Of a stretch of 64,000 nt of DNA, positions 9,134 through 62,013 are shown in pieces. Origin of the DNA: Chloroflexota bacterium. GTDB taxonomy: Bacteria; Chloroflexota; UBA11872. Location: the NCBI GenBank assembly GCA_022826485.1, contig JAJDUU010000014.1:1-64000 (forward strand), in the 5' to 3' direction. Position 1 is the first letter of the stretch. Each line of letters opens with the position of its first letter. Under the pieces are notes generated by a model. It did no database searches and was not told the origin of the DNA. It worked only from the letters and a program-made list of their open reading frames with translations. Made by a program: the position numbers and the translations under genes.

Positions 9134-10081
9134 ATGGGGGCATACGTAGCCCGACGGTTGGCCACGCTGCCGCTGTTGCTCCTGGGAATCTCAGCGGTCA
9201 GCTTTGCGCTGCTAAGCCTCGCGCCGGGCGATCCTGCGGAGACCATCCTGCGCCAGCGCAACCCCGGCCAGATGCCCAGCCCGGCCGCAGTGGCTGCCTT
9301 GCGCGCCGAGATGGGCTTGGACGCTCCCCTTCCGGCGCAATACGTTCGCTGGATGTCCCGGGCGCTTGGGGGCGACATGGGCCGCTCCTACCTGACGGAG
9401 CAGCCCGTGGCCGCCCAGTTGGCGCGCCGCACCGTCCCAACGGCCATGCTCACTGCGGCTGCGCTGGGCCTGGCGCTGCTGCTCGCCGTGCCCATGGGCA
9501 TCCTGTCCGCCCGGCGACGGGGCGGCGCCGTGGACGCCGTCGTACGTGTGGTGGCGCTGGTGGGTGCGTCGGCTTCGTCCTACGCCTTGGCCTTCGGACT
9601 GATCATTCTGTTCGCGGTGAAACTGTCCTGGTTGCCCGCCGTGGGCTACGGCTCGGCTGCCCAGATCGTGCTTCCGGCCATCGCCCTGTCGCTCGCGCCG
9701 ATGGCTCAGCTGACGCGGCTGATACGCGGCAGCATCCTGGATGTGCTGGGGCAGGACTATATCCGCACGGCGCGGGCCAAGGGGCTGACCGAAAAGGCCG
9801 TTCTCATGGGGCACGCCCTGCGCAACGCGCTGCTGCCTGCCATAGGCGCCACTGGCGTGTTCCTGGCGCACCTCCTCGGCGGCGCCGTCATCATTGAGAC
9901 CATCTTCACCTGGCCGGGTTTGGGTCAGTTGATCGTGGGCGCGGCCCTGACCCGGGACTACCCCGTGGTACAGGGGTTCGTCACCTACCTTGCGGTAGTG
10001 GTTCTGCTGGTCAACCTTGCGACCGACATTGCCCTGCGCGTCGCGAACCCGCGCCTGCGCTACGAACGGGGCCAGGTGTAG
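9134..10081 (+). CDS. ABC transporter permease, DppB/NikB type
   Basis: This 315-residue inner-membrane protein has about six membrane helices. Its N-terminus matches DppB-like permeases (RRLATLPLLLLGISAVSFAL, LAPGDPA). The EAA loop that contacts the ATPase is visible as DYIRTARAKGLTEKAVLMGH, followed by HALRNALLPAIG. It lies 42 bp after the binding-protein gene and 6 bp before the second permease, so the three form an operon. It would form the channel as a heterodimer with the next protein. Confidence 0.9.
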   Translation: MGAYVARRLATLPLLLLGISAVSFALLSLAPGDPAETILRQRNPGQMPSPAAVAALRAEMGLDAPLPAQYVRWMSRALGGDMGRSYLTEQPVAAQLARRTVPTAMLTAAALGLALLLAVPMGILSARRRGGAVDAVVRVVALVGASASSYALAFGLIILFAVKLSWLPAVGYGSAAQIVLPAIALSLAPMAQLTRLIRGSILDVLGQDYIRTARAKGLTEKAVLMGHALRNALLPAIGATGVFLAHLLGGAVIIETIFTWPGLGQLIVGAALTRDYPVVQGFVTYLAVVVLLVNLATDIALRVANPRLRYERGQV

Positions 10082-10087
10082 CGGCCC

Positions 10088-10993
10088 ATGAGGAGCCATG
10101 CCGAACGCGCTGGGGAACGACTGACCGGCGGGCCGGCCACCGCCGGTCCGCGCTGCCGCCGTCAGTGGAATGCGCTGCTGCGGGAGCCGGGAACCGCCTT
10201 GGGACTGTTTCTGGTGGTGACCCTGCTGACAGCGGGATTGTTGGCGCCCTGGATTCCGCTGGCTGATCCCACCGAGATTAATCTGCCCGAACGATTGCTC
10301 TCGCCGTCACTGGAGCACCCATTGGGCACCGACCATTTGGGTCGGGACACCTTGAGCCGGATCATCCACGGAACGCGCACGACGCTGCTGGCCGCCGCGG
10401 CAACCCTGCTCCTCAGCATGACCATTGCCGTGACTGTGGGCATGCTATCCGGCTACTACGGCGGCTGGCCGGACACGGCGCTGATGGGGGTCGTGGACCT
10501 GCTGTTGGCCTTTCCTTCACTGATCTTGGCGCTGGCCGTGGCCGGAGCATTGGGCCCCGGTCTGCTCAACGTGCTGCTGGCAGTCGGCGCCGTGTGGTGG
10601 GTGGGCCACGCCCGCATCATTCGCGGGATCACCCTGGGGGAGCGACAGATGGGGTATGTGACGGCGGCGCGGGCCGCTGGGGCCGGCGACCTGCGCATCA
10701 TCCTCCGGCACATCGCGCCAAACATCCTCGGCCAGATCGTCGTGCTCGCCTCCCTGGACGTCGGCTGGATCATCCTGGGCGTCGCCGGTCTCAGCTTCCT
10801 GGGGCTGGGCGCGCAGCCGCCCACACCGGAGTGGGGCGCCATGCTCAACGACGCCCGCCCGCACCTGCAAACCGCGCCGCATCTCCTGCTGCTTCCGGGA
10901 GCGGCCATCTTCGTCGCGGTGTTGGGGTTCAACCTCGTGGGTGACGGCCTGCGGGACCTGCTGGACCCGCGTCTCCGGCGACTAGGGGATTGA
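10088..10993 (+). CDS. ABC transporter permease, DppC/NikC type
   Basis: This 301-residue membrane protein carries the DppC-type N-terminal signature (HPLGTDHLGRDTLSRIIHGT) and the EAA loop (GYVTAARAAGAGDLRIILRH), with about six helices. It is the second permease of the importer. No ATP-binding subunit follows: the next 217 bp hold no gene and the next gene is on the other strand. The ATPases must be encoded elsewhere or shared with another system. Confidence 0.9.
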   Translation: MRSHAERAGERLTGGPATAGPRCRRQWNALLREPGTALGLFLVVTLLTAGLLAPWIPLADPTEINLPERLLSPSLEHPLGTDHLGRDTLSRIIHGTRTTLLAAAATLLLSMTIAVTVGMLSGYYGGWPDTALMGVVDLLLAFPSLILALAVAGALGPGLLNVLLAVGAVWWVGHARIIRGITLGERQMGYVTAARAAGAGDLRIILRHIAPNILGQIVVLASLDVGWIILGVAGLSFLGLGAQPPTPEWGAMLNDARPHLQTAPHLLLLPGAAIFVAVLGFNLVGDGLRDLLDPRLRRLGD

Positions 10994-11210
10994 CCGACGA
11001 GGACGAACGATCGTAAGCGCCGGCCTCCGTGGGGGGCGCCGGCATGGAGCCCGGACTGCCTGCTGGCCTGATGGTCGCGCCATCGGTCCTCGAATTCGTT
11101 CTGCCCGGCCTACTGATCGCCACGCGGATCGATTCAGGCTGGCAACCCGCGATGCGCCTCTCCAATGTTCGCGTGATACGGAATGCTTGAGGCGGCGGTC
11201 TACGAGCTGC

Positions 11211-11732
11211 CTATGTCCGTGTCGAGTCAAAGTTGAGGCATTCCTCGCAGACCGACTTCGGCACCAACCCCCAGCGAATCATGTAGTTGAACACGAAGCA
11301 TCCGGCGCAGAAACCCAGAAACGACTCAAGCGCGGCAAAGACGGTCAGCACCGCCAATACGACGCCGGCTGCCACCGACAATCCTGCGACGAAGTGCAAC
11401 ACCAGGGCGGTCACCGAGAAGACGAGTCCCACGGTTTGCGCAAAGCGCTTGGGCGGTCCGGGGACGAGATGCTCCTTGGCGATCCGCGGCGCGATCACCC
11501 TGGTCGCCAGCAGGCCCATCGGGCTTAACGTAGGTCCGGTGGCTACTCTGGCCAGAAAGCCATACGCAAGGAGAAACATCAACCACCACTGACCGGTTAC
11601 TAATACAACAATGGAAAGGATGACTACCATTCCGGCTACGATTCTTGCAGCCACTTCGTTGACCGGATTAGGAAAGGCAAAGATATTGCGAAGCCAAGGT
11701 GGAATCCGTCCGACAAGTGGTTGTGTAGTCAC
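11211..11732 (-). CDS. DUF4395 family integral membrane protein
   Basis: This 173-residue protein fits the DUF4395 pattern: FPNPVNEVAARIVAGMVVIL at the start, a VPGPPKRFAQTVGLVFS segment in the middle, and ESFLGFCAGCFVFNYM near the end, with about four membrane helices. The C-terminal tail has a CEEC motif and the last helix has paired cysteines (FCAGC), suggesting a redox or metal role. In other bacteria DUF4395 genes often neighbour thioredoxin-like or rhodanese genes, but none is adjacent here. It is a single-gene unit. Confidence 0.85.
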   Translation of the reverse strand: MTTQPLVGRIPPWLRNIFAFPNPVNEVAARIVAGMVVILSIVVLVTGQWWLMFLLAYGFLARVATGPTLSPMGLLATRVIAPRIAKEHLVPGPPKRFAQTVGLVFSVTALVLHFVAGLSVAAGVVLAVLTVFAALESFLGFCAGCFVFNYMIRWGLVPKSVCEECLNFDSTRT

Positions 11733-48078: not shown

Positions 48079-48852
48079 GTGATGGCGGCTGAACCGATCG
48101 TCCAACCATCCGAGCAAGTCGATAGTCCGACCGGAGAGACTCCCGATCTCTCCGTCGTCATTCCGACCTACCGTCAAGCGGATGTGATCGGTCGCCAGGT
48201 CACCGAGGTGCTTCGCGCGCTGGATGACCTGGGTTGTGCGTACGAAGTCCTGGTGGTCGTCGACGGCGACGAGGACTGCACGGCTGCCGCGCTGGCAACC
48301 ATTGAGCACGAGCGGCTTCGCGTTGCCGTGCAGGAGCGAAACTCGGGCAAGGGAGAGGCTGTGCGCCGTGGGCTGCTGGCGGTCGGCGGGCGCGCGCGCG
48401 CCTTTCTCGACGGTGGCGGGGACATTCCCCCGCAGTGCCTCGTGGACGCCTATCGTCTCCACGTCGAGTCGGGCTCGGACATCGTGGTCGGGTCCAAGCT
48501 GCACGCTCGGTCGGTGGTCGAGTATCCGCTGGCGCGCCGGATCTATAGCTGGGGCTATCGCCAGTTGACGCGGCTGCTCTTCGGGCTCACCGTGCGCGAT
48601 ACGCAGGTCGGACTCAAAATCTACGCCGCGCCGGTCGTCGAGCGGGTGTTTCCCCACGTGCGCACGGCGGGATTCGCCTTTGACATCGAGGCGCTGGCGA
48701 TGGCCATCCGGCTCGGCTTCCGCACCATTGTCGAGGCGCCCGTGATCGTGCGGGACCGCTATCCGAGCACCATCCGACCGTCCACCGCCGCCACGATGTT
48801 CATCGAGACGCTCATGGTCGCCGGGCGCTTGCGCAGGTTCGACCCTGAGTGA
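48079..48852 (+). CDS. family 2 glycosyltransferase (dolichyl-phosphate-sugar synthase-like)
   Basis: This 257-residue enzyme has the GT-A opening DLSVVIPTYRQADVIGRQV, EVLVVVDGDED, the RNSGKGEAVRRGLL segment and ARAFLDGGGDIPP in place of the usual DADL. The C-terminus has GLTVRDTQVGLKIYAA and an FDIEALAMA helix, as in polyprenyl-phosphate mannose/glucose synthases. No membrane helix is present. It would charge a lipid carrier for the surface-glycan genes at 50-61 kb. ATG 48082 is an alternative start. Confidence 0.85.
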   Translation: MMAAEPIVQPSEQVDSPTGETPDLSVVIPTYRQADVIGRQVTEVLRALDDLGCAYEVLVVVDGDEDCTAAALATIEHERLRVAVQERNSGKGEAVRRGLLAVGGRARAFLDGGGDIPPQCLVDAYRLHVESGSDIVVGSKLHARSVVEYPLARRIYSWGYRQLTRLLFGLTVRDTQVGLKIYAAPVVERVFPHVRTAGFAFDIEALAMAIRLGFRTIVEAPVIVRDRYPSTIRPSTAATMFIETLMVAGRLRRFDPE

Positions 48853-50188: not shown

Positions 50189-51220
50189 CTAGGAAGGCGG
50201 CGGCCGCGAGCGCACCAGGCCGCCCACGAAGTGCCAGCCGTAGCACAGGTGGCTGGCGACGATCGTGGGGATTACGGCCGCTCCGATCCCCACGCTGCGC
50301 GAACCCCACGTCGCCAGCAACGCGCTTCCCGCCACCGAGCCGCCGTAAATGGCCAGGCTGACAAGGAGCAGGACGCGCAGCGGCTCCACCCAGACCGACG
50401 CCACGGCGCCGGTGACGAGCCACAGCAGCCACAGGCTGGGGACGAAGTATGGGAGTCGACGCGAGGTTTCTGGAAACACGCGCGCGAAGTAGCCGCGATG
50501 CCGCCCGTAGTGCGCGATCTGACCCAGGTGGCCGCGCATCGCGGGCCGGCGATGGTGATACACCAGCGCGCCGGGCTCGTAGAGGATCACGCCGCCCCGG
50601 CGCACGATCTCCAGGCATAGCTTGGTGTCCTCCCCGGGATAGAAGGCGCTGTCGAATCCGCCGACAGCCTCGAACACCGACCGGCGCACCATCAGGTTCA
50701 TCGACGGATAGTCGTCCACGGTCCGACGACGGCCCGCAACGTAGCGGAAGCGAGCGGGGCCGGACACGATCCACGAGGCGTAAGTCCACCCGGAAACCTG
50801 GGCGCGAAATCCGTCGTCTGGCGGGGTGACGCCCGGCCCGCCGATCGCCGCAACCGCCGGGTTTTCGAAGTGGGTTTGGGCCGAATCCAGCCAACCGCGA
50901 GCGGGATACGCGTCGTCGTCGAGGAAGGCCAGCCAGGCTCCGCGGGCCGCCGCCGCCCCCATGTCGCGTTTCTGCGCCGGTCCACTCGGTCCGCTGACGA
51001 TGCAGTGCGCCCCGTCCAGGCTGCCCGGCGGCGCCTCGTCCAGAACCACGATCGTCTCTCGCGGCGGCCGGGGCAGGGTCGCAATCGCCGCCAGCGCCTC
51101 GACGAGATATGCGGTCTCGCGCGTCGCGACGATGATGATCGACGCGTCCACGAGTGGTGCGTCGCGCGGGGCCTTGCGCGCGTTACGATCGGCGGCGGGC
51201 GGTGGTTCGGAATCACCCAT
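50189..51220 (-). CDS. family 2 glycosyltransferase with C-terminal membrane helices
   Basis: This 343-residue protein has ASIIIVATRETAYLVEAL, GPAQKRDMGAAAARGAWLAFLDDDAYP with the metal-binding DDD, and GEDTKLCLEIVRRGG as in GT2 enzymes that transfer rhamnose or related sugars. Three hydrophobic segments follow near 255-330, so it is membrane-bound. It lies divergent to the radical SAM gene at 51322 and opens the surface-polysaccharide region. Confidence 0.87.
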   Translation of the reverse strand: MGDSEPPPAADRNARKAPRDAPLVDASIIIVATRETAYLVEALAAIATLPRPPRETIVVLDEAPPGSLDGAHCIVSGPSGPAQKRDMGAAAARGAWLAFLDDDAYPARGWLDSAQTHFENPAVAAIGGPGVTPPDDGFRAQVSGWTYASWIVSGPARFRYVAGRRRTVDDYPSMNLMVRRSVFEAVGGFDSAFYPGEDTKLCLEIVRRGGVILYEPGALVYHHRRPAMRGHLGQIAHYGRHRGYFARVFPETSRRLPYFVPSLWLLWLVTGAVASVWVEPLRVLLLVSLAIYGGSVAGSALLATWGSRSVGIGAAVIPTIVASHLCYGWHFVGGLVRSRPPPS

Positions 51221-51321: not shown

Positions 51322-53046
51322 GTGAGAGTTGCAATCAGCTTTCCGCCCTTCGAGAGCGCCAAGGGTATCCCGCTCCTCAGTCAGAACCGGCAATACCAGG
51401 TCTTTTCCACGGGTCGCAGCGAGGGCCGCGGGATCGTCGGCGCGCTGAACCGGTTTGTCGGCGACAACGCCACCGTCATCTTTCCGGTGTTGCCGGCGTT
51501 GGCGGCCACGCTGCTGGAGCGGCACGGCCACGAGGCGGTTTGGCTCGACGGGATCGCCGAAGGCTGGGACTGGGAAACCTACTGCCGGGAGATCGAGCTG
51601 GCCCGGCCCGAGCTGATGATGATCGAGACCAAGACGCCCAGCGCGCCACCGCTCTACCACGCCATCACCGACCTCAAGTCGCGGTTTCCGGCAATGACCA
51701 TCGCGCTCGTCGGCGACCACGTCACCGCGTTTCCCGAAGAGCCGTTCCTCTTCTGTCCCGTCGACTACGTGATCCGGGGTGGCCAGTTCGACTTCGCCAT
51801 CTTGAATCTCGCCGACTTCCTCGAGGGACGCGACGACCTCGGGAGCGGCGTGTTCTGGCGCCACGACGAGACCGAGATCGTCAACTCCGGCGAAGAGCCG
51901 GACCCGCCGGTGCGCGAGGCCGTGCGGCCGCACATCGACCGCCAACTGGCGAAGTGGGAGCTCTACGCCTATCGCAACGGGAACTTCCTCAAGAAAGGCA
52001 CCTATGGCTGGGCCACCGGTGCGACCAGCGCCGACTGCTGGTGGCGGCGACGCGTGCCCGGCGGGCCGCGTCGCGGCGGCGGCGGGTGCACCTTTTGCTC
52101 TTGGACCAGCATGCTCCCGACCTGGTCGGTGCGGCCGGTCGACGACTACCTGGATGAGCTGGAACAGCTCGTCGATCTCGGCGTCGAGGAGGTGTTCGAC
52201 GACACGGGCACGTTCCCCGCGGGGCGCTGGCTCACCGACTTCTGCACCGGGTTTCGCGAGCGGGGCCTGCACAAGGTCCTGATGATGGGCTGCAACATGC
52301 GGGCCGACGCCCTGTCCCAGGCCGAGTACGAGATGCTGGGTGAGAGCAACTTCCGCTTCATCCTCTACGGCATCGAGTCGGCCAATCAGCGCAGCCTCGA
52401 CCTCCTCAACAAGGGCACCACGGTTCGCCAGCAATGGGAATCGGTGAAATGGGCCAGCGAGGCCGGGCTGGAACCCCACGTCACGTGCATGGTCGGCTAC
52501 CCGTGGGAGACGTTCGACGAAGCCAAGCGGACCATTGACTTCACGCGCGAGACCTTCGACCGCGGCTGGATCAACACCCTGCAGGGCACCATCGTCATTC
52601 CCTATCCGGGCACCCAGCTCTACGCGCAGGCGCGCGAGCACGACTGGCTGCGGTTCGACGGCCCGGAGCACTGGGAGCGCTACGACATGCGGGAACCCGT
52701 GCTGCGGTCGCCAATTCCGACGGCGGAGATCATGGGATTGGTGCAGTCGCTCTACACCAGCTTCCTCACGCCGCGCTACGTGACCCGCAAGCTGCTGCAC
52801 GCGGGCAAGAGCCGCGACCACTTCCGCTATTACGTGGTTCGCGGGTCGCGCTACATCGTGGGCCACATGCTCGACTTCCGGAAGGGCCAGTTGGAGGCGG
52901 CTGAGAACGGCGCGGAATCGGCCGATACCGGCGTGGCCGAGCTTCCCGCCAGGCTATTCACCGCGGGCGGGTCAACCGCGCCGATCGACGCCAGCCTGCT
53001 GGAACCCGCCGCGCCCGAGGCGGAACCGGCCGTAGCGGTCGGCTAA
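51322..53046 (+). CDS. B12-binding radical SAM protein with an expanded iron-sulfur motif
   Basis: This 574-residue protein has an N-terminal cobalamin-binding-like domain (FPVLPALAATLLERHGHEAVW, ALVGDHVTAFPE) and a radical SAM barrel ending in FILYGIESANQRSLDLLNKG and HVTCMVGYPWET. The cluster motif is odd: the usual CX3CX2C is stretched to DCWWRR...GCTFCSW, with 16 residues between the first two cysteines, including a Gly/Arg-rich insert. Known homologues modify lipids, sugars or antibiotics, often methylating unactivated carbons. The gene lies in the glycan region. GTG or ATG choice at 51322 is fixed by MRVAISFPPFES. Confidence 0.85.
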   Translation: MRVAISFPPFESAKGIPLLSQNRQYQVFSTGRSEGRGIVGALNRFVGDNATVIFPVLPALAATLLERHGHEAVWLDGIAEGWDWETYCREIELARPELMMIETKTPSAPPLYHAITDLKSRFPAMTIALVGDHVTAFPEEPFLFCPVDYVIRGGQFDFAILNLADFLEGRDDLGSGVFWRHDETEIVNSGEEPDPPVREAVRPHIDRQLAKWELYAYRNGNFLKKGTYGWATGATSADCWWRRRVPGGPRRGGGGCTFCSWTSMLPTWSVRPVDDYLDELEQLVDLGVEEVFDDTGTFPAGRWLTDFCTGFRERGLHKVLMMGCNMRADALSQAEYEMLGESNFRFILYGIESANQRSLDLLNKGTTVRQQWESVKWASEAGLEPHVTCMVGYPWETFDEAKRTIDFTRETFDRGWINTLQGTIVIPYPGTQLYAQAREHDWLRFDGPEHWERYDMREPVLRSPIPTAEIMGLVQSLYTSFLTPRYVTRKLLHAGKSRDHFRYYVVRGSRYIVGHMLDFRKGQLEAAENGAESADTGVAELPARLFTAGGSTAPIDASLLEPAAPEAEPAVAVG

Positions 53047-54509: not shown

Positions 54510-55781
54510 TTGGTGGTCACCCCGTTGCGAATCCTGCTGATCATGAACGGATTGGTTCGCGAGCAGATTGACGGCGGCTGCGTCAGGATCATCGAGATCG
54601 CGAGGCAGTGGCAACGAGCCGGGCATGACATTCACCTGATGGGCAGCGCCCAGGCCGGAATCACCTGTCAGCAATGGGGTCTCACACCGACGACACACAT
54701 CACTCGGTGGCGAGTAGGCGAGGGCCGCTGGTGGATCGTGTTGCACTCGCTTGCCGTGTGCTTGTTCGCCCCGCTGTCGCTGTGGCGACTGAAGCCGAGC
54801 CTGATCGTAACCGCGCACGATCAGCCCTACGATGTCTTACCTGGCGCCATGCTCAAGCTGCAAAACTGGAAGCGCGCGCGCTTGGGCGTGGTTGTGCACT
54901 TGGTGCCGGTTTGGCGGTTTTGGCGCCGGCAGGGACCGCGCTGGTACCACGCGCTTGCTTTTCTCCTTGCGCACCGGCTGTCCTTGCTCTGCGCGGCCCT
55001 CTTCGCCAACTGCACGCTCGCAGTCTCCCGCGCGACCGCGCGCCAGCTTCGGCGCACTGGATTTCCGATGCGCCGTGTCGCCGCAGTGGCCTGCGGCGTG
55101 GATTTAGCCGCCATGGGCGCAGTCACGCCGAACCAACGGCAACCGCGGTGTGACGCAACATCCGTTGGTCGTACGGCCGCCTCAAAGGGCGTCTTTGACC
55201 TCATCGACGCATGGGCACTGGTGGTTTCTCAGAGGCCAGGTGCCAAGCTCGCGATGATTGGTGACGGACCCGACCAAGATGGGGTGAGCGATCGCATTCG
55301 ATACTGGGGGCTCGAAGAGAACGTCGATCTCTTGGGGTCGACGACAAACGCCGAGAAGGATCAATGCGTTGGCGCTTGCCGAGTCTTCGTGCTCCCCTCG
55401 CACGAGGAGAACTGGTCAATTGCCATGGCCGAAGCCATGGCGCTCGGCGTACCGGTGGTCGCTTACGACTTGCCGGAACTCCTCGAGGTCTGGGGCGATG
55501 CCTACCAGGCTGTTCCCGAAGGCGACATTCCTGCGCTTGCCGGCGCTATTCTGTCCCTGCTGGACGACGAGCCTCGTCGTCACGAGCTCGCCGGGCGGGG
55601 CTTGGCCCGTGTGAGCGAGCTCGACTGGTCCGTGATCGCGGAGCGCGAGCTTGAACTGCTAATGGGAGACCTTGCTGATGAAGACCCGCTCGGCGGGGAC
55701 CCGTGGCTGGTGGCGTCGCCGGAGTCGCGCGCCTCGGCCGACCCGTCGCCTCCCAGGCCTCCGACGATCGCGTCCAGCTAG
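54510..55781 (+). CDS. family 4 (GT-B fold) glycosyltransferase
   Basis: This 423-residue protein has an N-terminal Rossmann half (LRILLIMNGLVREQIDGGCVRIIEIARQW), RLKPSLIVTAHDQP, and a C-terminal half with SVGRTAASKGVFDLIDAW, AMIGDGPDQDG, LPSHEENWSIAMAEAMALGVPVVAYD, which is the E-x7-E nucleotide-sugar-binding motif. It probably adds a sugar to a lipid-linked glycan. The first start is TTG 54510, followed by GTG 54513; the ATG at 54543 is also in frame. Confidence 0.87.
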   Translation: MVVTPLRILLIMNGLVREQIDGGCVRIIEIARQWQRAGHDIHLMGSAQAGITCQQWGLTPTTHITRWRVGEGRWWIVLHSLAVCLFAPLSLWRLKPSLIVTAHDQPYDVLPGAMLKLQNWKRARLGVVVHLVPVWRFWRRQGPRWYHALAFLLAHRLSLLCAALFANCTLAVSRATARQLRRTGFPMRRVAAVACGVDLAAMGAVTPNQRQPRCDATSVGRTAASKGVFDLIDAWALVVSQRPGAKLAMIGDGPDQDGVSDRIRYWGLEENVDLLGSTTNAEKDQCVGACRVFVLPSHEENWSIAMAEAMALGVPVVAYDLPELLEVWGDAYQAVPEGDIPALAGAILSLLDDEPRRHELAGRGLARVSELDWSVIAERELELLMGDLADEDPLGGDPWLVASPESRASADPSPPRPPTIASS

Positions 55782-55852
55782 GTGCTCGCCTCCAACGTCG
55801 ACGGCTCGGCGTTGGTCCGCCTGGCCGAACGCTGAGCCGGTCACCGCCTGAG

Positions 55853-57235
55853 GTGCGCCAGACCGCGGCAGCGCCATCCGGTTCCGACGCCGGCGGGGCT
55901 TCGGGCGAAACGGGCGAGCCGGCAGACGTGGCCGAAGCCAGACCCTCGGGGCCGCGCGTCGTCGCCCGCGACACGGTGGTGCTCGGCGGCCTGAACTTTC
56001 TCGCCAGCCTGACGTCCTTTGGGTTTCAGTGGGCCATGGCGCGCCTGCTGGCGCCCGGTGACTACGCCGATTTGTTCGCGGTGCTGGCGCTGTTCGCCGT
56101 GCTGTCCGTGCCTTCGCAGCTGCTGCTGCCGATTGGCACCCGCATCACAAGTCTGGCCGTGGTTGCACGCGGAAGATCGGCTGCCCTCGAGGTCTTGCGG
56201 CGAGCGATTGTCCGGGGCGGGCTGGTTGGCCTGGTCGCGTGGATCGTCGTCGCCGCGACGAGCGGCGCCATCGAGTTCCTGCTTGGGACCGACAACCGTC
56301 CGGCGATCATCTGGCTGGGTTGTGCGGTGGCGATCGCCTTCGTGGTGCCGTACACCAAGGCCCTGCTGACCGGGCTGCGGGCTTTCCTCTTGCTCGGGGC
56401 CTCCAATCTGGTGGACGGCGCGCTTCGCGCGGGGATTGGCGTCGGATTGGTGGCGCTTGGCTTCGGCGTGGCGGGAGGCATGGCCGCTTCCGCGCTGTCC
56501 GGAATCGTCGGGGTCCTCGTCGTGGTGATCGCCGCGCCGTACATCGCCCGGGCGACCACCGAAGCGCCGGTTGAAACTCCGCCGGATGCGAGCGGAATGT
56601 CCGCCCACGTGCGGGTTGGGCTGTTGAGCCTGTCGCTGGCGATCCTGATGAACGTGGACGTCCTGGTCGTGCGGCACTTCTTTGACGATGCCAACGCGTC
56701 GCTCTACGCCGCCTCCGCGCTCGTCGGACGCATCGTCCTCTTTGCCTCGGCGCCCGCGGCGCAGGTGGTGCTCCCGCACATCATTCGGCAGGTGGCTGCT
56801 CGCGAGCCGTTTACGCGCACCTTCGCCGTTACGGCCGCCTTCACGATGCTCATCAGCGGCGGCGCGGCGCTGATAATCGTGGTCGCCCCCGAGTTCGTGT
56901 TTCAGATCATCTTCGCGGACCGCTACGTTCCTGATCCCCCGCTGGTCTGGGCATACACCCTCGTCGGTTCACTGCTCGCACTGCTGACCCTGCTGACGTA
57001 TTTCCACATTGGGGCCGGTACGCTTCGGGTATGGCTTGTGCTCGTCCCGCTGAGCATTGCGTGCGCCGTGACGCTTTGGCTTCAGCACGAAACCCTGACC
57101 GCGGTAGCGTGGACGCTGGATGCGTTCCTGGGCGCCGGCGTCATCGCGATGCTTGGCTGGGCCGTCATGGTGCTCCGGCGCGACCGTGCCGGCGGAGGGC
57201 GTCAGCCGGCGGAGGCAGGCACGCGCCGTTCGTGA
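55853..57235 (+). CDS. Wzx-like polysaccharide flippase
   Basis: This 460-residue protein begins at GTG 55853 after a polar ~40-residue leader. It has about 12 to 14 membrane helices in the MATE/Wzx style: VLGGLNFLASLTSFGFQWAMARLLAPGDYADLF, FVVPYTKALLTGLRAFLLLGASN, SLAILMNVDVLVVRHFFD, ASALVGRIVLFASAPAAQVVLPHI. It should flip lipid-linked oligosaccharide across the membrane. The frame upstream to 55703 overlaps the glycosyltransferase and is not coding. It sits between the glycosyltransferase and the giant membrane protein. Confidence 0.82.
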   Translation: MRQTAAAPSGSDAGGASGETGEPADVAEARPSGPRVVARDTVVLGGLNFLASLTSFGFQWAMARLLAPGDYADLFAVLALFAVLSVPSQLLLPIGTRITSLAVVARGRSAALEVLRRAIVRGGLVGLVAWIVVAATSGAIEFLLGTDNRPAIIWLGCAVAIAFVVPYTKALLTGLRAFLLLGASNLVDGALRAGIGVGLVALGFGVAGGMAASALSGIVGVLVVVIAAPYIARATTEAPVETPPDASGMSAHVRVGLLSLSLAILMNVDVLVVRHFFDDANASLYAASALVGRIVLFASAPAAQVVLPHIIRQVAAREPFTRTFAVTAAFTMLISGGAALIIVVAPEFVFQIIFADRYVPDPPLVWAYTLVGSLLALLTLLTYFHIGAGTLRVWLVLVPLSIACAVTLWLQHETLTAVAWTLDAFLGAGVIAMLGWAVMVLRRDRAGGGRQPAEAGTRRS

Positions 57236-57325: not shown

Positions 57326-60300
57326 ATGAGCGCCAGCGCCATGCCGGCCGCGGCGCAACGCGGTCCTTCGGTCGTGTCAGATGTGCTGCGGCGGTCATTT
57401 GCCTGGGTTCGGCGGCTGATCGCCCGCCACCCGGACGCGGCGGCCTACGCGGCCATTGTGTTGCTGGTGGTGATCTGGCACCGCGGCTTGATCTTCGACC
57501 CGGGCTACCTCGGGCTGCGCGACGACTGGACCACTCCGTTCGCCGCCTGGCAGAACACCGACTTTGCCCTCGACCGGCTCTCGGCGTGGCAGACGAACTA
57601 CTTCGGGTCGTCCGAGGAAGAACGAGCGATGAGCCAGTACCTCCAGCTTGCGTTGGGGACCCTGACGCTCATTCCCGGTGTCGACGGTTGGTTCACCTCG
57701 CGGGTCTCCATCATCTTTCTCGCGCTGGCCGGCGTCTTCATGTACCAGGCCGCCAAACGCTTCGAGTTCGGCAGGCCCGCGGCCTTCACGGCCGCGGTCG
57801 TGTACATGACGACGCCGTTCTTCTTGGACGCCTTCATCACCGGCTATGCCGCCATGCTCATCAGCGTGGCGCTGCTGCCCAAGGCCCTTCAGGTTGCGCA
57901 TGAGACCTTCGACCGCGCGCCGGGCGCTCGTGGATTCGTGCGCGGCAGCCTGTGGATTGGATTGGCTGCCAGCTCAATCCACATGACCTTCATCACCACC
58001 GCCGTGGTTGGCGGCTATGCGCTGTTTCGGGCCTTCACCGCGGAGGGACCACGGGGTCAGCGCCTGCGGCGACTGGGACTCGTCGCCGCCATGGGGCTCA
58101 GCGTCATCCTGTTGCACCCGGCCATCGCCTTTATCTCATGGCAGATCATCGTGGTGCCCTCGGCAAATCAGGTCATGTCGGCCTGGAGCATCGAGGCCGC
58201 CGCTCAGTGGATCAAAGGCGCCGCGCCGACCCTGACCGAGGCGCTGACCCTCACCGGTCCTCCCTACAACTACTCCCAGAATCCGGAGGGGCCGCTGGCC
58301 GCTGGCAGTGGCGTCCGGCTCGTGGCGCGCGGCCTCATGACGGGACTGGCCCTGGTTGCGCCGGTGCTGCTAACTGGGCGCGCCCGGCAGCGCGCCCTGC
58401 TGGGCGTGGTCGGGTTTCTTGCCCTGGTGCTGATCGGGAAGGGATTCAACGAACCGTTCGCGGTCATCCAGGATGCGATTGACGGCACGGTGGTGGGCGC
58501 AATCTTCAGGAACATTCGCTATCTCACCGTTGGGGCGGGGCTGCTGCTGGCGTTCCTGGTGGGGCAGAGCGTCGCCCATCTCGCGGCCCGGCCGCCCGAC
58601 GCGTGGCGACGCGCGGGCGGCGTTCTCGTCGGCGTGGTGGTCGCGGCCAGCACGCTGCCCTTCTGGAACGGGAACCTCGCGGGCCATCTGCCGCCCTACA
58701 CGATCGACGACGACACCGTCGCCGCGATCGAAAACCTGCGCGCGTTGCCTCACAACGACCGCATGGTCCACTTGCCGATGTTCTGGCCGAGCAGCTATCA
58801 GAGCAGCACCGGTCGGTTCTCAACCCAGGGAAATCCCCCCTCCGTCGTGCAGCCGCCGAAGCGATCGATCTGGGGCTCGGCGGCCTCCACGCTCAACGGC
58901 CCGTGGACCGCCACACTCAATCAGGGGCTCTACGGTCCGAACCGGTATCCCGTCGACCGGCTCCTGGCCTACGGGCGCTTTCGCAACGTCATGCTCGATC
59001 CGCATTGGGAGAGCACCCACGCTGGATTCATCGTGCCGACCGGCGAGCCGTGGCTGGAATGGCAGGAGCGACGCCCCCGCCCGCAGCTCGCGCTGGCGGC
59101 GCAGCCGGGCCTCGACCATATGGATGAGCTGTCCGTGGGTGAGGTCGAAATCTATGAGGTGACGACGCCGCCGGGATCACGTCTGGGATCTCCTGGGCGC
59201 ATCATCGTCGGCTCCCCGTCCCTCCGACCGCTCGTAACCGCTTGGCATATGTTCGATGACGCGAGCGCCGTGGCCATCGCCAGCGGCGAGCTGGGAGTGC
59301 GCGGGATCGACGGCGCGCCCGGCGGCGCGGTCCGAGCCGCCACGGAAATCTGGTTGGGCGCCGACCCGCAGGACCTGACGGCCAACTATCTGCCCGAGGG
59401 CGCGTTGGTGAGCCCCGCGGACCAGGTCTGGCCGCAAGTCCCTGACGCCACCCGGGAATGGGTGGCCCCCTACAAGAACGCCTGGTGGTACGCCGATCCC
59501 GAGATCGCGGATATGACACGCGGCCTGCTCACCCGAGCCGGCGACGTGGCCTTCACCGTTGCGATCGATACCACCGGCGCGACCGACGAGCTTTGGATTC
59601 GCCACTTCGTGAGCCCCGAGGGCAGCGCGCTGGAGATCGTGTTGGACGGGCGATCCGTGGCTCGCATCAACACCCGCGAGGCTGCCGGCTACGGCTACCG
59701 CTGGACGCGGGTCGAGGCGCCAACCGACCGCGCCGGCCCGCATGACGTCCTGGTGCGAACCGATGGACCCGGACTCAACGCCGTTTCGCAGCTGGCTTTG
59801 CTGTCGTCGTCGGAGACTCAGGCAGCCGAGCGGGCGGCCGAGCAAGCGCTGGCCCGGCTTCCCGTCTTTACCGTGTTGCCGGACCTCGGGACAACGGATG
59901 GCGACCGCACGTTTCAGCTGACGCGCGCCGGCGCGTATACCGTGCGGCTCGCCGCCCTGCCGGGCCTGCAGCCCACGCTCAGCATCGATGGGTCGCCGAT
60001 CCCACTGGAGCGCAGCGGCACCGAGCTGGGCTACGACATTCTGGAAGGAGTGGTAGAGCTCGACGCCGGACCGCACCGCCTGACCCTGCGCGCGCCGCCG
60101 CCGCCGGAGCCTGTGGTCAGCGTGAGCCACCAGCTTCCTGAGGCCACGGCATTTCAGCCCTGTGAAACCGTCGTGTGCGCCGGCGCCGTCCGCGTTGAAG
60201 CGTCAGTGCCGTCCGATGGTCGAATCGTCTCCTTCACCGGTCGAGTCACCACCGGCGCAGACGGCGTCAACGTGACAGGCGCTCAGGCGCACCCCTACGT

Positions 60301-60853
60301 CGCGCACCAGATTCACCGTGAGCTGGCCAATGAGCACGACAGACTCGTGCGGGTCGAGGTGCCGCTCGACGCCGGATCGCCCGTCGCGACCCTCGACGTG
60401 CAACATCTGCGCGAAGGACTACCCGGCTTGGAGTTCGAGTTGCTGGAGGTTGGGGTCTCCCCACTGCCGCACAGCCTCACCGTCGTCCTCGCGCATGCGC
60501 CGCAATCGCAGCCTGCCGGAGGCGGCGGGCTCTCGCTGACGGGCGAGGGGCTGGGCTGGGCAGCCGCGGAGTACCACGGCGAGTCGCGTGAGCGGCTCGT
60601 TCGGCTAGACGAGCGATTCGATCCGCGCTGGGTGCTCCACGTCAATGGCCGCGAGGTGAGCTCGGAGCGCCATGTGGTCGTCGACGGGCACTTCAATGGG
60701 TGGTTCGCGAACCTGGCGCCCGGCGACGAGGTGACGGCGACGTTCACGCCGAACTACGGGTACTTCTGGATTCTGATGGTGAATCTGGGGTTCCTCTTCG
60801 GCATGCTGCTCTTTGGCTGGGCGCCGCTGCCGCGCCGGTGGTGGCGGCGGTGA
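57326..60853 (+). CDS. giant GT-C-type membrane protein with large extracytoplasmic domain
   Basis: This 1175-residue protein has about ten membrane helices in its first ~440 residues and one near the C-terminus (YFWILMVNLGFLFGMLLF). The loop after helix 1 (GYLGLRDDWTTPFAAWQN) has the acidic pair typical of GT-C glycosyltransferases; this and HLPMFWPSSYQSS resemble the AftD/DUF3367 arabinofuranosyltransferase-like family. The ~600-residue middle domain is beta-rich (VDIT-style strands) and probably extracytoplasmic. It should use a lipid-phosphate sugar donor, for example from the enzyme at 48079. The next gene overlaps its stop (GTGA). Confidence 0.75.
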   Translation: MSASAMPAAAQRGPSVVSDVLRRSFAWVRRLIARHPDAAAYAAIVLLVVIWHRGLIFDPGYLGLRDDWTTPFAAWQNTDFALDRLSAWQTNYFGSSEEERAMSQYLQLALGTLTLIPGVDGWFTSRVSIIFLALAGVFMYQAAKRFEFGRPAAFTAAVVYMTTPFFLDAFITGYAAMLISVALLPKALQVAHETFDRAPGARGFVRGSLWIGLAASSIHMTFITTAVVGGYALFRAFTAEGPRGQRLRRLGLVAAMGLSVILLHPAIAFISWQIIVVPSANQVMSAWSIEAAAQWIKGAAPTLTEALTLTGPPYNYSQNPEGPLAAGSGVRLVARGLMTGLALVAPVLLTGRARQRALLGVVGFLALVLIGKGFNEPFAVIQDAIDGTVVGAIFRNIRYLTVGAGLLLAFLVGQSVAHLAARPPDAWRRAGGVLVGVVVAASTLPFWNGNLAGHLPPYTIDDDTVAAIENLRALPHNDRMVHLPMFWPSSYQSSTGRFSTQGNPPSVVQPPKRSIWGSAASTLNGPWTATLNQGLYGPNRYPVDRLLAYGRFRNVMLDPHWESTHAGFIVPTGEPWLEWQERRPRPQLALAAQPGLDHMDELSVGEVEIYEVTTPPGSRLGSPGRIIVGSPSLRPLVTAWHMFDDASAVAIASGELGVRGIDGAPGGAVRAATEIWLGADPQDLTANYLPEGALVSPADQVWPQVPDATREWVAPYKNAWWYADPEIADMTRGLLTRAGDVAFTVAIDTTGATDELWIRHFVSPEGSALEIVLDGRSVARINTREAAGYGYRWTRVEAPTDRAGPHDVLVRTDGPGLNAVSQLALLSSSETQAAERAAEQALARLPVFTVLPDLGTTDGDRTFQLTRAGAYTVRLAALPGLQPTLSIDGSPIPLERSGTELGYDILEGVVELDAGPHRLTLRAPPPPEPVVSVSHQLPEATAFQPCETVVCAGAVRVEASVPSDGRIVSFTGRVTTGADGVNVTGAQAHPYVAHQIHRELANEHDRLVRVEVPLDAGSPVATLDVQHLREGLPGLEFELLEVGVSPLPHSLTVVLAHAPQSQPAGGGGLSLTGEGLGWAAAEYHGESRERLVRLDERFDPRWVLHVNGREVSSERHVVVDGHFNGWFANLAPGDEVTATFTPNYGYFWILMVNLGFLFGMLLFGWAPLPRRWWRR

Positions 60854-62013
60854 CCGCGAGTCGCCGCTGGCCCGTCGTCCCGGCGATTTGGATCGTCGCC
60901 GTGGTCCTGAGTGTCGCCGCCGCCATAGGCTGGCCCGCTGGCCCCCTGGTCGTCGGCGGCGTGACGGGCGATCCCTTTGAGATCGGCCCACTGCTCCCGG
61001 GCTGGAGCTTGCGGCAGACGCTGAGCCCCGAGCGCGGACCTGAGCTCTTCGTCGGGTTTCAGGCGCGTCCAACGGCGTCCATCGAATCGTCGCCCTCGCT
61101 GGAGGTGCGACTCGAGCGGGACGACACGGTGCTCTGGGCCGACCGATTGCGCCTCACGCGCCAGGGCATGACCGAGTACGTCGCCACGTTCCCGGTACCC
61201 ATCGACCGCGAGGGGTACGCCCTGGCGGTGCGTGTGCTCGAGGCGCCCGGCGGCGGTGTCGTGTTGCGCGGCGTCGACATCGGCGATCCCGACGCCCGAA
61301 CACAGCTCGCCATCATGGGACAGCCGCTGCGCGGATTCCTGGCCTTGGGCCACCGGATGTTTCAGCGCCTGCCGCCCGTCCTCCACCTGGAGCCCATTGC
61401 GGCGGCTCTCGAAGGATGGACCGTCGCGGTCGCCGCCGGCGTCGCCGTCATCGCCGGGCTGGTTGGCGCGGCGGCGGCCCTACTGGTGGCGCGCGTTTAC
61501 GGGCGCCTCATGGCCATTGTCATCACCCTTGCAGGTGTAGTGGCTCTCCCGATCTGGCTATTCGTGGCGGCAGCGCACCTTGGCGTGCCTCGCATGGCGG
61601 GAACCCACATCGGGATTCTGGAGGGTCTGACGCCGACGGGCATCGCCGCGCTGCTGGCGTTCCCGCTCGTGGTGATTGCTGGTTTCGTCGCCATCGTCAA
61701 TAAGGCGCCCCGAGCCGCGGTCGACAGCGCCGGTAGCGTCGCTCGGGGCCTGCGGCTCGCAGCCATCACGGCGATCCGGCACTGGTATCTCGCTCCAATT
61801 CCCCTCGGGGGCGCGGCTGCCGCGGCCTTCATGCAGGAGGCTCATGACGTGGCGACGGCCTTGGCATTTCTGACCGGCGCCTGGGCGCTGTTCGGCGTGG
61901 TGGCAACGGCCGCCGTTTTCCGTCGAGGCGGGGGGCGTTCCGAGGAGGGAGCCCCCGAGGCGCCGGCGAGCGAAGTTTCGGTCGAGCGGGGTGCGCCGCG
62001 CGTCACCCGGTGA
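60850..62013 (+). CDS. membrane protein coupled to the GT-C protein
   Basis: This 387-residue protein starts at GTG 60850 in the stop of the preceding gene. It has an N-terminal helix (WIVAVVLSVAAAIGWP), a beta-rich extracytoplasmic segment of about 190 residues (PLLPGWSLRQTLSPERGP...VVLRGVDIGDPDAR), and four or five C-terminal helices. The beta segment is reminiscent of domains in the previous protein. I know no named family. The last ~12 codons overlap, in antisense, a scar of the carbamoyltransferase gene, so the C-terminus may have been altered. Confidence 0.65.
   Translation: MTASRRWPVVPAIWIVAVVLSVAAAIGWPAGPLVVGGVTGDPFEIGPLLPGWSLRQTLSPERGPELFVGFQARPTASIESSPSLEVRLERDDTVLWADRLRLTRQGMTEYVATFPVPIDREGYALAVRVLEAPGGGVVLRGVDIGDPDARTQLAIMGQPLRGFLALGHRMFQRLPPVLHLEPIAAALEGWTVAVAAGVAVIAGLVGAAAALLVARVYGRLMAIVITLAGVVALPIWLFVAAAHLGVPRMAGTHIGILEGLTPTGIAALLAFPLVVIAGFVAIVNKAPRAAVDSAGSVARGLRLAAITAIRHWYLAPIPLGGAAAAAFMQEAHDVATALAFLTGAWALFGVVATAAVFRRGGGRSEEGAPEAPASEVSVERGAPRVTR

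Follow-up and report, generated by a model that had tools for sequence, protein, structure and literature searches.

A radical SAM protein of Chloroflexota with a CX16CX2C cluster motif and a probable role in glycan modification

The locus and its radical SAM gene

The window (the whole stretch of DNA that was analysed, 64,000 nucleotides of a Chloroflexota contig) carries a gene for a radical SAM protein, with genes for glycosyltransferases and a membrane protein nearby. The features are listed below, with residue numbers referring to the radical SAM protein.

48079 to 48852, plus strand: second GT2 glycosyltransferase (Pfam), a recurrent neighbour with matches in 12/14 loci
50189 to 51220, minus strand: divergent GT2 glycosyltransferase (Pfam), a recurrent neighbour with matches in 12/14 loci
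51322 to 53046, plus strand: radical SAM gene, GTG start, 574 aa; passes the gathering score of the superfamily profile PF04055 (50.2 against 29.5 bits)
51322 to 51951, plus strand: N-terminal B12-binding-like Rossmann domain, residues 1-210 (approximate), suggested by a weak PF02310 score and the fold match
51409 to 51465, plus strand: N-terminal insertion, residues 30-48, missing in the aligned shorter-loop relatives; pN/pS 0.337
52036 to 52038, plus strand: Cys239, putative first cluster ligand, in 46/46 aligned rows
52039 to 52086, plus strand: 16-residue Gly/Arg-rich Cys1-Cys2 loop WWRRRVPGGPRRGGGG, in 11/11 order sequences; pN/pS 0.140
52081 to 52542, plus strand: radical SAM core (Pfam match)
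52087 to 52098, plus strand: Cys256-X2-Cys259 (CTFC), putative second and third cluster ligands, in 46/46 aligned rows
52102 to 52104, plus strand: Trp261, two residues past the last Cys, at the position of TokK Trp215 (alignment rows; passages of PMC9692996)
52882 to 53043, plus strand: C-terminal tail, residues 521-574, missing in the aligned shorter-loop relatives
54510 to 55781, plus strand: GT4-type glycosyltransferase, with matches in 3/14 loci
55703 to 57235, plus strand: polytopic membrane protein with about 11 hydrophobic segments and no Pfam match, a recurrent neighbour with matches in 7/14 loci

The open reading frame reads Cys239-X16-Cys256-X2-Cys259, exactly the CX16CX2C motif that a sequence-only reading of the window had announced, and the Gly/Arg-rich insert and intact CTFCSW described there are both present. 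Cys256 and Cys259 lie at 52087-52089 and 52096-52098, and Ser-Trp261 follows. The same reading took CX3CX2C as the reference spacing. This is correct for the rest of the genome, where the other 12 of the 13 PF04055 matches (E up to 0.001) carry CX3CX2C, but not within the protein's own family, where CX4CX2C is the commonest form in the sample. The C-terminal tail changes fast (pN/pS of 0.413 for the whole, 0.201 for residues 538-554) and contains a conserved AELP..L.TAGG.TAP stretch.

The long loop is conserved in the order and under purifying selection

A search of 101 genomes, the window's own and those around it, gave matches to the protein in 12, of which 11 belong to the same order. The sequence-only reading had proposed looking for the insert in close homologues. 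It is conserved there: all 11 order sequences (the window and 10 others; L001 and L003-L012) have the X16 spacing with nearly the same insert, and none shows the CX3CX2C that would have pointed to a sequencing error. The letters of the loop are those of the window, exactly or nearly, in 7 of the 11, and in the most diverged sequence (L012, 75% identity overall) the loop reads WWRKRIDGGPKSGGGG. The loop codons vary at many synonymous positions among these sequences. The loop has a pairwise pN/pS (Nei-Gojobori proportions uncorrected for multiple hits) of 0.140; the figures are 0.106 over residues 256-440 and 0.197 over residues 1-210. These values indicate purifying selection on the loop. Of the two explanations offered initially, an in-frame insertion that the fold accommodates is supported by the conservation across the order, by the shorter loops found at the same site, and by the predicted B12-type radical SAM fold, although "tolerated" is too weak a word for an insert that selection maintains.

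The gene is present in 5/5 other genomes of the genus, in 2/13 of a second genus of the family, and in 3/5 elsewhere in the order. This uneven distribution, with a match in each of the 6 genomes of the window's genus but in 2/13 of the sister genus, suggests gene loss or lateral movement.

Loop length varies within a family of Chloroflexota and viral proteins

Relatives were collected from 400 genomes of the phylum, 197 genomes of one class, and profile scans of viral contigs. Since the genome searches covered the window's phylum and a single wider scan of genome contigs used the window protein alone, the spread of the family among bacteria is under-sampled. Two further scans of one set of 29 genomes revealed nothing new. 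The profiles matched viral contigs, whereas the window protein as sole query did not, and GenBank phage records gave no relative with either the window protein (1e-5) or the viral relative L040 (1e-3). Plasmid relatives were distant, with less than 30% identity among the matches listed (20 of 36; 10 of 107 records). Membership of a known named family was considered and rejected: the window protein and four relatives scored below every curated NCBIfam cut-off listed. A literature search, in which CX16CX2C was entered under one spelling, found no description of the X16 spacing or of the family.

The alignment comprised 46 rows, i.e., 20 rows plus 26 viral rows from 31 viral loci. Three duplicate contigs were dropped (L077, L079, and L080, equal to L041, L053, and L040), and a fragment (L104) and a distant viral match (L106, 26% identity) were left out. 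L005 and L011, both X16, are absent from the 20-row alignment. Four near-copies, judged by match figures and motif (L083, L086, L097, and L105, of L076, L084, L095, and L103), count in the 46 rows and in the 42 family rows but were removed from the tree and from the GT2 test described below. L089 was kept despite four stops within its matched stretch in the frame that was read, and may be broken. All three cysteines are present in 46/46 rows, and the family, found in Chloroflexota and viral contigs, shows Cys1-Cys2 spacings of 4, 5, 7, 9, and 16. The X4 form is the commonest in this sample, most of it viral (26/42 family rows: L013, L050, and 24/29 viral rows). The X5 spacing occurs in L081 and L082, X7 in L040, L041, and L098, and X9 in L022 and L023. 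The X3 spacing is seen in four distant outgroups (L014, L036, L038, and L039) and in L106, outside the alignment.

In a maximum-likelihood tree of 42 rows, built with the loop columns excluded, the X16 sequences form a single clade (100/100) whose sister is a viral X7 pair (95/90; a 20-row tree agrees, 94/96). The X9 pair branches first and the X4 rows next. On this tree the six spacings require six changes, and X7 arose twice. The series of loops, CWWGKC, CWWAGAKGC, CWWRHQGGC, and CWWRRRVPGGPRRGGGGC, suggests that the loop grew between the WW and the G preceding Cys2.

Fold, cluster ligands, and cofactor

The AlphaFold2 model of the window protein (20 rows) had a mean pLDDT of 85.2 and a pTM of 0.86, with the loop at low confidence (residues 248-253 below 50). 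That of the X4 relative L050 reached 90.8 and has the same order of elements round the motif (strand, cluster loop, short helix). The best solved folds were AprD4 (Z 27.6, rmsd 3.2 over 423 residues), MgmA (23.8), OxsB (22.9), and TsrM (22.8). Foldseek ranked AprD4, MgmA, TsrM, and OxsB at the top, and a sequence profile searched against the PDB placed AprD4 (2.7e-33) and then MgmA first. The alignment with MgmA, OxsB, and TsrM over most of the model supports an N-terminal Rossmann domain ahead of the radical SAM domain, a feature that is unspecific. MiaB and RimO, too, align with the greater part of the model (Z about 19), and the fold match is therefore not diagnostic of cobalamin enzymes. 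Nor does the fold favour methylation over dehydration, since AprD4, which matches best, is itself a diol dehydratase.

Evidence on the cobalamin domain comes from profiles and from one tryptophan. The window protein scores 17.8 bits with PF02310, below the cut-off of 32.1, and L040 is the only one of six family members scanned to pass (33.4). Passages of a study of TokK (PMC9692996) describe Trp215, which comes two residues past the last cysteine of the cluster motif, as contacting both SAM and cobalamin, and report a Glu at this position in TsrM. Among the family rows, a Trp two residues after the last cysteine occurs in 21/21 of those that retain the central part of the Rossmann domain and in 2/21 of those in which this part is missing. 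The latter rows, of 294-374 residues, form one viral clade (100/100, 18 tree rows), so the loss of the Trp amounts in essence to one event and not 21. These short IMG/VR proteins (L084-L103 and L105) are without most of the B12-type Rossmann domain, usually without the Trp, and nearly all CX4CX2C; L098 has X7 instead. The short viral clade may be cobalamin-free, and because of it cobalamin is probably not used by every member of the family.

The unusual spacing could have explanations other than a longer loop with its ligands in place. The stretch from 52050 to 52086 is G+C-rich and repetitive, as might be expected of a sequencing, assembly, or frameshift artefact, but the loop has an identical length in 11 assemblies whose synonymous codons differ, and its pN/pS is that of a constrained sequence. 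An artefact is thus barely conceivable, and sequencing error in particular is excluded by the 11 independent assemblies that share X16. The sequence-only reading had also raised the use of a different third ligand; in that case another residue would replace Cys239 and leave the stretched first cysteine idle. A spacing so far from the canonical one lends this idea some appeal, as do cysteines that the X16 clade conserves as its own (Cys88, Cys389, and Cys145, each in 9/9 rows but in 0, 1, and 4 of the 33 non-X16 family rows) and two that are frequent in the family (Cys308, 25/33; Cys324, 27/33), yet shared beyond the long-loop members. Among the 8 cysteines of the window protein, however, only Cys239, Cys256, and Cys259 occur in all 46 rows, Cys239 being retained in the shorter-loop relatives and in the four CX3CX2C outgroups. 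No compensating cysteine nearby, nor any other in the protein, is universal, which makes a ligand swap very improbable. We infer with high confidence that the SAM-binding [4Fe-4S] cluster is held by Cys239, Cys256, and Cys259.

The cofactor leaves more room for disagreement. The protein could be an AprD4-type radical SAM dehydratase that converts a sugar without cobalamin and keeps its Rossmann fold as a scaffold only. AprD4, which we take to work without cobalamin, heads both the fold matches and the profile matches among solved structures, the central part of the Rossmann domain is gone from the short viral relatives, and the window protein falls short of the PF02310 cut-off. The distribution of the bridging Trp, found in all rows with the middle of that domain and missing from nearly all rows without it, argues against this reading, as does the score of L040 above the cut-off. 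We consider a cobalamin-free dehydratase unlikely, though a serious contender. It is with moderate confidence that we predict the use of cobalamin by the full-length forms, the window's included.

Glycosyltransferase genes accompany the family in bacteria and viruses

The 14 bacterial loci represent 13 places (L019 and L059 lie on one contig), and their neighbour counts are raw figures, the comparison with random loci given below being confined to viral contigs. In the X4 relative L054, four genes follow one another on one strand, namely that for the membrane protein, the two GT2 genes, and the radical SAM gene, and the short contig L057 has none of the recurrent neighbours. For the GT2 protein at 50189-51220, the nearest NCBIfam model is the mycofactocin glycosyltransferase MftF (121.4 bits, cut-off 280). 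Further along the window, 57326-60853 and 60700-62013 encode two proteins without Pfam match (1175 and 437 residues) that are putatively membrane-bound and that some relatives also keep beside the cluster.

A GT2 gene lies near the radical SAM gene in 21/25 distinct viral loci (281 kb) and in 0/30 random viral loci (276 kb; Fisher test, P = 1.5e-11). The GT2 profile used was built only from the bacterial GT2 neighbours; the control loci were drawn by an arbitrary 16-mer and are unmatched for habitat or length of contigs. An earlier count, with a profile including viral GT2 rows, gave 25/29. The viral status of the contigs follows from their place in the IMG/VR collection and from phage-type genes in two scanned contigs (L041 and L053). 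L053 encodes exonuclease, Bet-like, and SbcC-like genes, and its radical SAM gene (9974-11389) stands beside a GT2-like gene; by reading of its open reading frames, the flanks also hold another radical SAM gene and further genes of sugar pathways. On the L040 contig, a radical SAM/SPASM protein (10174-11061) is encoded a few kb from the B12-type one. A distant plasmid relative from Solidesulfovibrio (24% identity) adjoins a glycosyltransferase, an acyltransferase, and an epimerase. These glycosyltransferase neighbours name no specific substrate, and we propose with moderate confidence that the substrate is a glycan.

Proposed function and its implications

We favour the view that the window encodes a radical SAM enzyme, probably cobalamin-dependent, that modifies a glycan intermediate and has a lengthened cluster loop; the assignments of cluster, cobalamin, substrate, and reaction are predictions from sequence, fold, and gene context. 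In this enzyme, the Cys1-Cys2 loop would have been lengthened in frame to 16 residues with all ligands staying in place, and the insert would sit after the Trp-Trp and before the Gly-Gly-Cys. The length of this loop would have changed several times in the family, giving X5, X7 twice, X9, and X16. The substrate would most likely be a sugar or a lipid-linked glycan formed as an intermediate on the way to a surface polysaccharide, and SAM, probably together with cobalamin, would be used for its C-methylation or for a radical reaction of a related type. The insert, rich in Arg and Gly, probably covers the mouth of the barrel as a flexible lid.

A bolder proposal, which we put forward tentatively and judge rather unlikely to hold in full, is that these proteins constitute a family, so far undescribed, of radical SAM enzymes that modify glycans in Chloroflexota and phages, with an evolvable loop, a phosphate-binding insert, and a cobalamin-free phage branch. 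The Cys1-Cys2 loop might then be a substrate-recognition element that was independently lengthened several times with the SAM chemistry fixed. The Arg-rich X16 insert might bind the phosphate of a nucleotide-sugar or of a polyprenyl-linked glycan, and the phage branch, having shed most of the cobalamin domain together with the bridging Trp, might represent a natural conversion to a cobalamin-free enzyme.

Motif searches restricted to CX3CX2C would miss or misread the family. Within it, one loop occurs naturally with spacings of 4, 5, 7, 9, and 16 (3 in distant relatives), which makes it possible to test in a single family how the Cys1-Cys2 distance affects the assembly of the cluster and the choice of substrate. 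The viral branch that is missing most of the B12-type domain allows a further test, namely whether these enzymes require cobalamin. The link with glycosyltransferases extends to viral contigs and points to a radical chemistry that acts on surface sugars.

Comparison with known systems

The principle of a lengthened or odd Cys1-Cys2 loop is already known from QueE, PoyC, and GenD1. Elp3 and YtqA/MnmL were considered as further precedents for a long loop and set aside; the passages on Elp3 (PMC13315578) give no spacing. By fold, the closest system is AprD4, a 1,2-diol dehydratase acting on paromamine and thus on a sugar, whose motif is also odd (CX3CX3C as read from the profile alignment). It differs from the window protein in sequence (15% identity), and its model NF033070 gives 27.8 bits against a cut-off of 500. 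The best NCBIfam profile is that of the hopanoid-associated HpnJ (TIGR03471, 103.5 bits, 1.3e-29), with the cut-off of 577.6 missed. The cut-off of TIGR03975 (rSAM_ocin_1), the family to which PoyC presumably belongs, is also missed (32.3 against 281.85 bits), and the genes around the window protein are glycosyltransferases. Passages of PMC5682303 describe PoyC and related RiPP C-methyltransferases as radical SAM enzymes that use cobalamin and have the unconventional motif CX7CX2C.

QueE and GenD1 offer the nearest parallels in the motif itself, the comparison being one of motifs and not of sequences. QueE, the 7-carboxy-7-deazaguanine synthase, has CX14CX2C, presented in passages of PMC4389238 as a canonical motif with one extended loop, and so resembles the window protein in its lengthened Cys1-Cys2 loop; it differs in its small beta6/alpha3 core (same source) and in a spacing of 14 instead of 16. 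GenD1 and GenK, both cobalamin radical SAM C-methylases, act in an antibiotic pathway (gentamicin biosynthesis) and, in the passages describing them, have no X16 loop, unlike the window protein. GenD1 is nevertheless a SAM- and cobalamin-dependent C-methylase of gentamicin A with CX4CX2C (passages of PMC4340712), the spacing that is also the commonest in the family reported here.
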